64,000 nt of DNA from positions 4,338,001 to 4,402,000 of the forward strand of contig NZ_CP015318.1 in NCBI RefSeq assembly GCF_001686985.1, written 5' to 3'. The stretch is from Mesorhizobium amorphae CCNWGS0123. Its GTDB lineage: Bacteria; Pseudomonadota; Alphaproteobacteria; Rhizobiales; Rhizobiaceae. The notes beneath the pieces are model-generated. The model saw only the letters and a program-made list of their open reading frames with translations, was not told where the DNA came from and did no database searches. Positions 4,893 through 7,010 of the stretch are shown one piece after another. A program made the translations under genes and the position numbers. Position 1 is the stretch's first letter. Every line of letters begins with the position of its first letter.

Positions 4893-6698
4893 TCAGACCA
4901 CCAATCCCTTGGTCAGCTCGAGCGCCTGACGCTCGAACAGCCGGCGGTAGATGCCGCCGTTCAGCCGGATCAGCTCGTCATGCGAGCCCTCTTCGGTGAT
5001 GCGGCCGCGATCGAACACCAGCAGCCTGTCCAGCGCCCGCACCGTCGACAGCCGGTGCGCGATGACCAGCGTCGTGCGGCCGACCATCAGCCGCTCCATC
5101 GCCTGCTGGATGAGCACCTCCGATTCCGAGTCGAGGCTCGACGTCGCCTCGTCGAGGATCAGGATGCGCGCATCGGCAAGGAACGCACGCGCGATCGCCA
5201 CCCGCTGGCGCTCGCCGCCCGACAGCTTCACGCCGCGCTCGCCGACCAGCGTGCCGTAGCCCTTCGGCAAATTGGCGATGAAGTCGTGCGCGCTGGCCAG
5301 CTTCGCGGCATGCTCGATCTCCGCCTGGCTGGCGTTCGGGCGGGCATAGGCGATGTTTTCCGCCAGCGACCGGTGGAACAGGATCGGCTCCTGCTGGACG
5401 ATGGCGATCTGCCCGCGCAGCGACGCCTGCGCAACCTCGGAAATATCCTAGCCGTCGATCAGGATCCTTCCGGCGCTGACGTCATAGAGGCGCTGGATCA
5501 GCTTGACGAAGGTCGTCTTGCCCGAGCCGGAATGGCCGACCAGGCCGACGCGTTCGCCGGGTGCGATTTCCACCGAGAAGTCGCGATAGAGCGGCAGCCG
5601 GTGGTTGCCATAGTGGAAGGTGACCTTGTCGAAGGTGATGCCGCCGTCGCCGATGTAGATTGGCCCGGCGCCGGGCCTGTCCTCGATGCCGAGCGGTTCG
5701 GACTGGAAGTCGACCAGTTCCTCCATGTCGTTGATCGAGCGCTGCAGATTGCGGATATGCGTGCCGATGTCGCGCAGATAACCCTGCAGCACGAAGAACG
5801 AGGTCAGCACGAAGGCGACATCGCCGGCGCTGGCCTCACCCCACGCCCACAGCATCAGCGCCAGCCCGATCACCGCCGTCCTGAGCAGCAGAAGCATCGT
5901 GCCTTGCGTCGTGCCGTTGACGGTGCCGCGCACCCAGGTGCGGCGCGTGCGCGCGCGCCACTTGGCGACCACCCTCGCCAGCCGCGTTTCCTCGCGCGCC
6001 TCGGCGCCAAATCCCTTGACCACGGCATTGCAGCTCACCGCGTCGGCCAGCGAGCCGCCGAGGCGCGTGTCCCATGTGTTGGCGAGCCTTGCCGCCGGCG
6101 CGACATAGCCGAGCGACAGCATCGCCGTGACCGCGATGAACAGCACCGATCCGGCGGCGACCACCGCGCCCATCAGCGGCCAGAACCAGCCGAGCAGCAG
6201 CGTCGAGCCGACGAGCATGACGACCGACGGCAGCAACGCAATCAGGATCGTGTCGTTGAGCAGGTCGAGCGCCCACATGCCGCGCGTGACCTTGCGCACC
6301 GTCGATCCGGCAAAGCTGTTGGCGTGCCAGTCGGTGGAAAAGCGCTGGACGCGGTGGAAGGCGTCGGCGGCGATATCCGCCATCATCTTCAGCGTCAGCT
6401 CGACGATGGCCATGAAGGCGGCGTTGCGCAGCACGACGCCGGCCAGCGCCAGCGCCACCAGCATCGAAAAGGCCGCGATCGCGGCATTCCAGGCGACCTC
6501 GTCCGCCGCGGCGCTGCTGGCAACCGCGTCGACCAGCCGTCCCGAATAGAGCGGCGTCAGCACGTCGGCCAGCGTCGACAAAAGGAAGGCGCCCATGATC
6601 AGCGAAAGCCGCCACGGCTGGCGCCGCCAATGGATGAGCGTGAAGCCGAGAACGCTGCGGAAGGCGTCGGCGCGCAGGTCGAGTCGAAAACGAGCCAT
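4893..6698 (-). pseudogene. ABC exporter (fused permease-ATPase) interrupted by an amber codon
   Basis: A type IV half-exporter of about 601 codons: transmembrane region about residues 1-330, then an ATP-binding domain with Walker A GHSGSGKTT. A TAG at 5448-5450 falls directly after ILIDG, where the family usually has Gln or Glu before DIS. The same frame continues without further damage through the Q-loop (QQEP), signature LSGGE, Walker [13 protein letters not shown] and H-loop AHRLS to the stop at 4893. A CAG-to-TAG change explains it. The truncated product lacks the parts needed for ATP hydrolysis. An in-frame ATG at 6716 is an alternative start. Substrate unknown; multidrug export is inferred from family. 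Confidence 0.85.
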
Positions 6699-6746
6699 GA
6701 TGTCATCCGGGCGCAAACGAGCCCGGTCCCGGTAAGGTCAAAATTG

Positions 6747-6777
6747 AAAAAACCGCGCTGGCGCCATTGGCGCCCGG
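6747..6777 (-). terminator. Terminator-like hairpin in the exporter leader
   Basis: On the minus strand, CCG-GGCGCC pairs with GGCGCC-(AGCG bulge)-CGG around an AAT loop and is followed by six Ts. It lies between the leader ORF and the exporter start, the position expected of an attenuator. Confidence 0.55.
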
Positions 6778-6904
6778 AAAATGCGGAGGTTCGGCTTATT
6801 TGGCGGCTCGCCCGTACAAGGGGCGGCGACCTGCAGCGGCAAATGCCTGTTCTCGGATCAGCTCTCGTCGCGAAGGCGAACCCTCGCGGCATGCTGACCA
6901 GGAC

Positions 6905-6946
6905 CTAGGCTTCGCGGCCTCGCATAGCGATGTCAAATCGTGGCAT
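6905..6946 (-). CDS. Putative 13-residue leader peptide of the ABC exporter
   Basis: A 13-codon ORF (MPRFDIAMRGREA, stop TAG) with a very strong Shine-Dalgarno (CAGGAGGAACCG) ending just before its ATG. It begins about 36-41 nt after a good -10 box and lies about 200 nt upstream of the exporter, with a terminator-like hairpin between. This is the arrangement of ribosome-mediated attenuation. Arg9-Gly10-Arg11 fits the Arg/Lys-x-Arg/Lys pattern known from macrolide-dependent stalling in leaders such as ErmDL. Any link to a drug is inference; the ORF could also be a chance short frame. Confidence 0.5.
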   Translation of the reverse strand: MPRFDIAMRGREA

Positions 6947-6981
6947 TCGGTTCCTCCTGAAGGGGAAGCGCGGAGGAGTTC

Positions 6982-7010
6982 TTATAGAGATGCCGCAGCG
7001 CATCGCCAAG
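6982..7010 (-). promoter_or_regulatory. Sigma-70-type promoter for exporter leader
   Basis: CTTGGC (7010-7005), a 17-nt spacer and CTATAA (6987-6982) match the rhizobial housekeeping consensus CTTGAC-N17-CTATAT at five of six bases in each box. Transcription would start near 6975, about 30 nt before the leader ORF. Confidence 0.6.

Follow-up and report, generated by a model that had tools for sequence, protein, structure and literature searches.

A conserved uORF leader with the layout of a transcription attenuator precedes a type I ABC exporter gene in Mesorhizobium and other Rhizobiales

Among Gram-positive bacteria, the antibiotic-inducible attenuators of bmrB-bmrCD, ermK and lmo0919 combine an upstream open reading frame (uORF), a choice between terminator and antiterminator, and a downstream resistance or transport gene. 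The same components recur in the vmlR attenuator (PMC9226507) and, with a putative choice between terminator and antiterminator, at the locus described here, which differs from such systems in lying in another phylum and in that its candidate antiterminator is the Shine-Dalgarno sequence (SD) of the uORF itself. Macrolide arrest peptides of the ErmDL/MsrDL class (PMC8298421, PMC10314930) resemble it in that their short leader peptide contains a basic-x-basic motif, although here the motif varies between genera and the downstream gene encodes a type I ABC exporter rather than a methylase or an ABC-F protein. The trpL/rnTrpL attenuator of Sinorhizobium meliloti (PMC10117765) likewise has a short leader peptide and belongs to the Rhizobiaceae, whereas the present uORF contains no Trp run and is preceded by a strong SD, trpL being leaderless.

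The closest published case is the uORF of S. meliloti duf1127-1 (Kothe et al. 2025, PMC12218461). Its ribosome-binding site can pair with C-rich early codons of the uORF, and reporter experiments indicate that attenuation requires uORF translation and is relieved by tetracycline or, in the authors' model, by missing ribosome loading; the uORF is proposed to monitor ribosome availability, and termination is thought to be Rho dependent via two elements. The present leader resembles this system in its uORF, in its occurrence in the Rhizobiaceae and in an order-wide anti-SD within the early uORF that fits the duf1127-1 anatomy. It differs in the gene concerned, in its intrinsic-type terminator and, in the Mesorhizobium group, in the location of the candidate anti-SD in a terminator arm and not in the uORF. 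The Mesorhizobium layout, in which an intrinsic terminator is coupled to a distal candidate anti-SD, would thus be a variant of the duf1127-1 type. In a search covering mainly open-access papers, none was seen to describe this leader in its title or the opening of its abstract.

The window, by which we mean the whole 64,000-nucleotide stretch of Mesorhizobium amorphae CCNWGS0123 DNA that was analysed (source genome, 7.34 Mb), carries the leader on its minus strand, on which all of the following features lie. A -35 hexamer, CTTGGC (7005 to 7010), and a -10 hexamer, CTATAA (6982 to 6987), are separated by 17 nucleotides and followed by the uORF SD, AGGAGG (6953 to 6958), and by the uORF MPRFDIAMRGREA, which comprises 13 codons and a TAG stop (6905 to 6946). 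The end of the uORF contains the 5' arm of a helix here termed P1 (GGCCGCGAAGCCT, 6907 to 6919), the 3' arm of which (AGGCATTTGCCGCTGC) lies at 6833 to 6848, while a second hairpin, P3 (6802 to 6831), occupies the spacer. The T segment, GAACCTCCGCAT (6781 to 6792), represents both the 5' arm of the terminator and a candidate anti-SD (CCTCC) for the uORF SD. The bulged terminator hairpin (6753 to 6786; local fold, -15.2 kcal/mol) is found 118 nucleotides from the uORF and ends in a U6 tract (6747 to 6752), and the exporter initiation region (6696 to 6730) harbors an SD-like GGGA, a hairpin with arms CCGGGC and GCCCGG (6707 to 6726) and the ATG at 6698. Promoter, strong SD, 13-codon uORF, spacer, bulged terminator and exporter are all present at the positions given in the initial annotation, which had read them as the layout of ribosome-mediated attenuation; the layout is indeed of the uORF type and is conserved far beyond Mesorhizobium. 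Neither the promoter nor the terminator was among the entries of a rule-based feature scan of the window, because the rules of that scan require a closer consensus and an unbulged stem. The 420-nucleotide intergenic stretch occurs once in this genome, the next match having an E value of 0.41, and the fold of the whole leader is mildly better than that of its shuffles (z -1.73). No Rfam family exceeded its gathering score at the leader, either in a scan of the whole window or at 13 loci, and a search of nine loci at E values of up to 1 returned two weak matches, both at L189 and far under the gathering score. Elsewhere in the window, Rfam matches were obtained to the EcpR1 sRNA (RF02500; 38033 to 38144, minus strand) and to the glycine riboswitch (RF00504; 59325 to 59411, plus strand).

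Orthologues of the exporter were detected in 134 of 146 genomes of the genus (E <= 1e-60), in 76 of 297 genomes and 33 of 109 genera of the family, and in 87 of 397 genomes and 22 of 141 genera of the order (both at E <= 1e-100). From the 134 exporter-bearing genomes of the genus, 80 upstream regions, among them that of the window, were read, and a uORF was present in 79, three of these (L016, L085 and L099) having escaped the first pattern and been included manually. Under a strict rule (an ATG 150 to 290 nucleotides before the exporter, 8 to 27 codons and a 5-base SD match), uORF and SD were recovered in 78 of 79 Mesorhizobium leaders, in 54 of 60 loci from other Rhizobiaceae genera and in 23 of 31 loci from other families, the remaining eight lacking them; mononucleotide-shuffled sequences gave means of 1.4, 1.2 and 0.4, respectively. 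The ORF, the conservation of which the initial annotation had proposed as a check, is thus widely kept. Many Mesorhizobium genomes encode a second exporter of approximately 68% identity, and none of the 10 copies read (L054 to L063) is preceded by a strict uORF with SD; the same was true of seven other ABC exporters of this genome, a rough control since gene starts were approximated by match starts. A promoter-like match was found upstream of the uORF in 69 of the 79 Mesorhizobium leaders (mean of 0.1 in mononucleotide shuffles), at a distance from the uORF of 63 nucleotides in 45 and of 64 nucleotides in 12. The leader arrangement is real and far from chance.

The single exception among the 80 upstream regions is L101 of genome G012, in which a covariance model of the leader placed it approximately 4 kb upstream of the exporter. 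The intervening DNA (L323; G012:C46:211400-215900) contains other reading frames, one of which we take to be transposase-like. With this model, no genome yielded more than a single copy at E <= 0.01. Strong matches (E <= 1.1e-13) occurred in 52 of 61 genomes of the genus, 51 of them directly before the exporter and the other being that of G012; G092 gave a weak match (E 0.005), and eight genomes gave none. Five of these eight (G061, G062, G072, G102 and G130) have no exporter at E <= 1e-60, and the other three (G010, G027 and G042) encode divergent exporters before which uORFs were found by pattern. Across the 297 family genomes, the exact motif of the uORF end matched six times, always before this exporter; three one-mismatch matches (G209, G248 and G319) also precede it, at a stringency at which a reversed control pattern gives many matches too.

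The structural comparisons employed an alignment of 50 of 56 leaders (A1; left out were L048, L050, L051, L191, L194 and L197) and a subset of 32 of these 50 (A2). A set of 54 representatives takes in 20 of the 31 loci of other families, those omitted being L293, L295, L296, L297, L303, L306 and L307, which contain no uORF by a looser rule, and the near-duplicates L300, L301, L302 and L310. Representatives and groups were picked by hand, groups being assigned from locus handles; 80 named loci served as a source of titles and identities only, and several statistics derive from custom scripts. In L017, L018 and L027, a palindromic repeat of the GCATCGGCCCGAAAATCGG type lies between the promoter and the uORF SD, while L016 and L037 have the inserted flank in common; the uORF is kept in all of these, with a weak SD in L037. 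Inspection by eye shows different genes upstream of the leader in different species, with the end of nadE in some and an acetyltransferase-like end in others (L021, L022 and L024 compared with L010 and L011), and the leader, therefore, seems to travel with the exporter.

The exporter gene itself (4893 to 6698, minus strand; 602 codons with stops) encodes a type I ABC exporter, and its frame is interrupted by an in-frame TAG at 5448 to 5450 (codon 417), a feature absent from the initial annotation. This codon precedes the ABC signature, the reading frame is open again beyond it, and all 29 orthologues inspected read through at this position. The exporter is truncated in this strain, by either a nonsense mutation or an assembly error, and the leader in this strain may, therefore, regulate a dead gene. 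The exporter portion of the window is 99% identical to M. amorphae CCBAU 01570 and 98% identical to M. waimense. While 107 NCBIfam models match it, none of the best 25 of the 107 reaches its cut-off (best match, 102.7 bits against a cut-off of 602 bits), and the PDB relatives are general, comprising ABCB6 and Atm1-type exporters, so that these matches point to no particular substrate.

Conservation of the uORF differs between its two halves. In an own pairwise count of 32 distinct uORFs, made without a tree, pN/pS was 1.22 for codons 2 to 7 and 0.35 for codons 8 to 13, as compared with 0.16 for the first exporter codons. Codons 2 to 7 are free of amino acid constraint and codons 8 to 13 are moderately constrained, a constraint part of which P1 pairing could explain. 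Mesorhizobium uORFs end in an almost unvarying DNA sequence (CGA GGC CGC GAA GCC TAG), the stop being TAG in 74 of 76 uORFs, and length variants stay in frame (MAVFEMRGREA in L085 and L099; MAVFNSVVTRGREA in L186). TAG is also the stop in 27 of the 54 representatives, often as TAGGTC and across families (for example, L199, L224, L298, L314 and L322). The peptide differs between genera. Since codons 2 to 7 are unconstrained, it is the act of translation, and not the whole peptide, that seems to be conserved; and given that conservation extends to the SD, the start and the length class but not to the peptide, translation of the uORF is likely to be the control input. We favor, with moderate confidence drawn from sequence comparison, a role for the leader as a transcription attenuator that would report translation status through its uORF.

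A drug-specific sensor of the nascent chain is considered unlikely. This reading, an erm/msr-type logic acting via transcription attenuation, supposes that a macrolide- or ketolide-bound ribosome stalls at a C-terminal Arg/Lys-x-Arg/Lys, opens P1 and allows transcription to enter a drug exporter, and it corresponds to the macrolide sensing suggested initially from Arg-Gly-Arg in the peptide. Of 79 Mesorhizobium uORFs, 74 retain R-x-R (the five losses being GGRKA twice, RGSEA twice and RGNEA once), a basic C-terminus recurs across the representatives, and the fraction of Arg and Lys rises from 0.048 in the N-terminal half to 0.179 in the C-terminal half (0.104/0.129 and 0.139/0.196 in the other frames). 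Among the representatives, [RK]x[RK] occurs within the last eight residues in 15 of 54, which exceeds both residue shuffles (8.1 +/- 2.1; p 0.002) and nucleotide shuffles (6.3 +/- 2.4). However, the other 39 representatives, close relatives included, do not contain the motif (RGSEA, RGLEA and MPGREA in genera near Mesorhizobium); because the peptide changes between genera, R-x-R is no general feature. Moreover, frame +2 of the same GC-rich DNA yields the motif in 12 of 54 cases (3 of 54 in frame +1), so that base composition may account for part of the excess, and the conserved nucleotides serve P1 too. Drug sensing as read from Arg-Gly-Arg is thus supported only in part.

RNA structure was compared across A1. 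The named helices (P1, P3, the outer stem of the terminator and the pre-start hairpin) are paired in 91.5% of 1585 cells, as opposed to 34 to 47% in slid versions, with a covariation score of 0.121 (shuffled, 0.107 +/- 0.004) and 18 cells changed on both sides (shuffled, 8.0 +/- 2.3), the structure used being partly derived from the tested sequences. Seven pairs were changed on both sides, no excess over the slid versions (4 to 9); in P3, both sides had changed in 4 of 11 pairs. P1, in addition to its A1 pair counts, was assessed by swapping: a uORF end paired with its own spacer outperformed swapped combinations, with z 0.65 +/- 0.20 (33 groups), P1 having been chosen among 22 scanned pairs of segments, a few more of which attain z 0.4 to 0.5. 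P1 coevolves across genera. Within Mesorhizobium representatives the corresponding values were -0.4 to 0.5, and -0.20 for the window sequence. Partition-function folding of 30 sequences assigned the outer stem of the terminator a low probability (means of 0.06 to 0.22), and folding with modelled ribosome positions produced little change and no clear switch.

Two further pairings were considered and not retained. An antiterminator formed by ATGCGAGG of the uORF and CCTCCGCAT of the terminator was apparent by eye in Mesorhizobium and, again by eye, is not kept in near genera. RNAalifold applied to A1 returned a small hairpin at the uORF end together with four pairs involving the 3' arm of the terminator, in near-invariant columns and with no double changes.

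The structured region could, in principle, act without attenuation, as a 5' untranslated region whose uORF and hairpins adjust the stability of the mRNA or the translation of the exporter, a reading that we regard as quite unlikely. At normal spacing the exporter lacks an SD; its SD-like GGGA or GGAG is followed by a conserved hairpin, which stops a few nucleotides short of the ATG (98% of cells paired in A1, in which it is helix 5), as if this hairpin were bridging SD and start. The same arrangement is seen in Mesorhizobium (A1) and, by eye, in other families (L292 to L322). Consistent with the absence of attenuation, the U-tract is poor in several genera, being broken, by eye, in many leaders outside Mesorhizobium, and termination there may, therefore, be Rho dependent or absent; yet hairpin and U-rich tail are conserved within Mesorhizobium.

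Outside the Mesorhizobium group, an anti-SD C-run (CTCC, TCCC or CCCC) starts at +11 to +27 from the uORF ATG in 33 of 45 representatives, whereas codon-order shuffles gave 16.7 +/- 3.0 with a maximum of 25 in 2000, and this run could base-pair with the SD, GGGAGG. A local SD:uORF swap test returned z -0.10; as the C-run is common to many genera, swapping cannot detect it, and codon-order shuffling was used instead. In the near-Mesorhizobium group the run was found in none of nine representatives, a count that does not establish its loss since shuffles expect 0.5.

In several near-Mesorhizobium lineages it is the T segment that is complementary to the SD and start, as in L191 (GGUACGAAUG:CAUUCGUACC, 10 bp), L082 (GCGGGAGG:CCUCCCGC, 8 bp) and L051 (GGAUACGA:UCGUAUCC, 8 bp), the complementarity in the window being limited to 5 bp (GGAGG:CCUCC) and no better than with the T segments of other genera. 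SD swap tests by segment peaked at -105 to -65 before the exporter (z 0.68 +/- 0.21; 22 groups), with values of 0.43 to 0.59 in overlapping segments and slightly under zero elsewhere. Of the 87 cells of an unbiased map, SD x T ranked first (t 3.6) and P1 second (2.9), the noise of the map being large given that negative cells reach -3.4 and -3.0. No SD:T covariation was found within A1, held-out genera gave z 0.07 +/- 0.21 (11 groups), and an unrestricted SD-to-spacer duplex test with swaps gave no signal (mean rank 0.50; 65 leaders). When the test was limited to the 44 nucleotides before the terminator, an average of 0.23 of shuffled T segments matched or beat the leader's own (36 leaders; no terminator was called by the rule in L088 and L197), and in swaps with other species the own segment fell near the middle, with 0.47 and 0.41 at least as good. 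An anti-SD in the 5' arm of the terminator is, on this comparative evidence, put forward tentatively and for the near-Mesorhizobium group only.

The favored attenuator, reporting translation status, would operate as follows. Prompt loading and clearing of the uORF by ribosomes would allow the terminator to fold, or a termination site to be exposed, and the exporter would be off. Impaired loading or elongation, whether through ribosome shortage or translation inhibitors, would leave the SD bare and free to pair with an anti-SD. Throughout the order, the uORF SD could be masked by a C-rich anti-SD. In Mesorhizobium this part would fall to the 5' arm of the terminator as the candidate anti-SD: SD:T pairing and termination would be mutually exclusive, and SD:T pairing would permit RNA polymerase to continue into the exporter. 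Ribosome stalling at the end of the uORF would be expected to have the same outcome, with the SD free, re-initiation blocked and P1 opened. Extending this scheme, one may speculate, at a confidence well short of that attached to the attenuator itself, that the leaders represent an order-wide attenuator class sensing ribosome loading, in which the uORF SD serves as the antiterminator or masks a termination element, and in which the anti-SD has moved from the uORF body, its location in most Rhizobiales sampled, to the 5' arm of an intrinsic terminator in Mesorhizobium and near genera.

The terminated leader might instead be the product, as a small RNA or as a dual-function transcript and peptide acting in trans, with the exporter expressed through basal read-through. 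Its own promoter, structure and U6 terminator would suit such a role, and S. meliloti rnTrpL and peTrpL are described as acting in trans (PMC10117765, PMC7298713), but the leader accompanies this exporter alone in Mesorhizobium and its peptide is unconserved between genera, which renders this explanation very unlikely. An amino acid-specific attenuator of the trp or his kind would use the same parts (leader ORF, alternative stems and terminator) but is barely credible, as the 54 peptides contain no single regulatory codon run and no common residue after Met and the downstream gene is an exporter rather than a biosynthetic operon.

An attenuator governed by uORF translation leads to defined predictions: translation inhibitors should induce the exporter, loss of the uORF start codon should derepress it, and mutants of SD and anti-SD should rescue one another. 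Should the order-wide class sensing ribosome loading prove to be true, a vacant SD would directly disarm the terminator of a stress exporter. The leader itself is a second candidate, and one of wider conservation, next to the single S. meliloti gene with a reported uORF sensor of translation efficiency, and it would link a widely conserved type I ABC exporter of the Rhizobiales to the state of translation.
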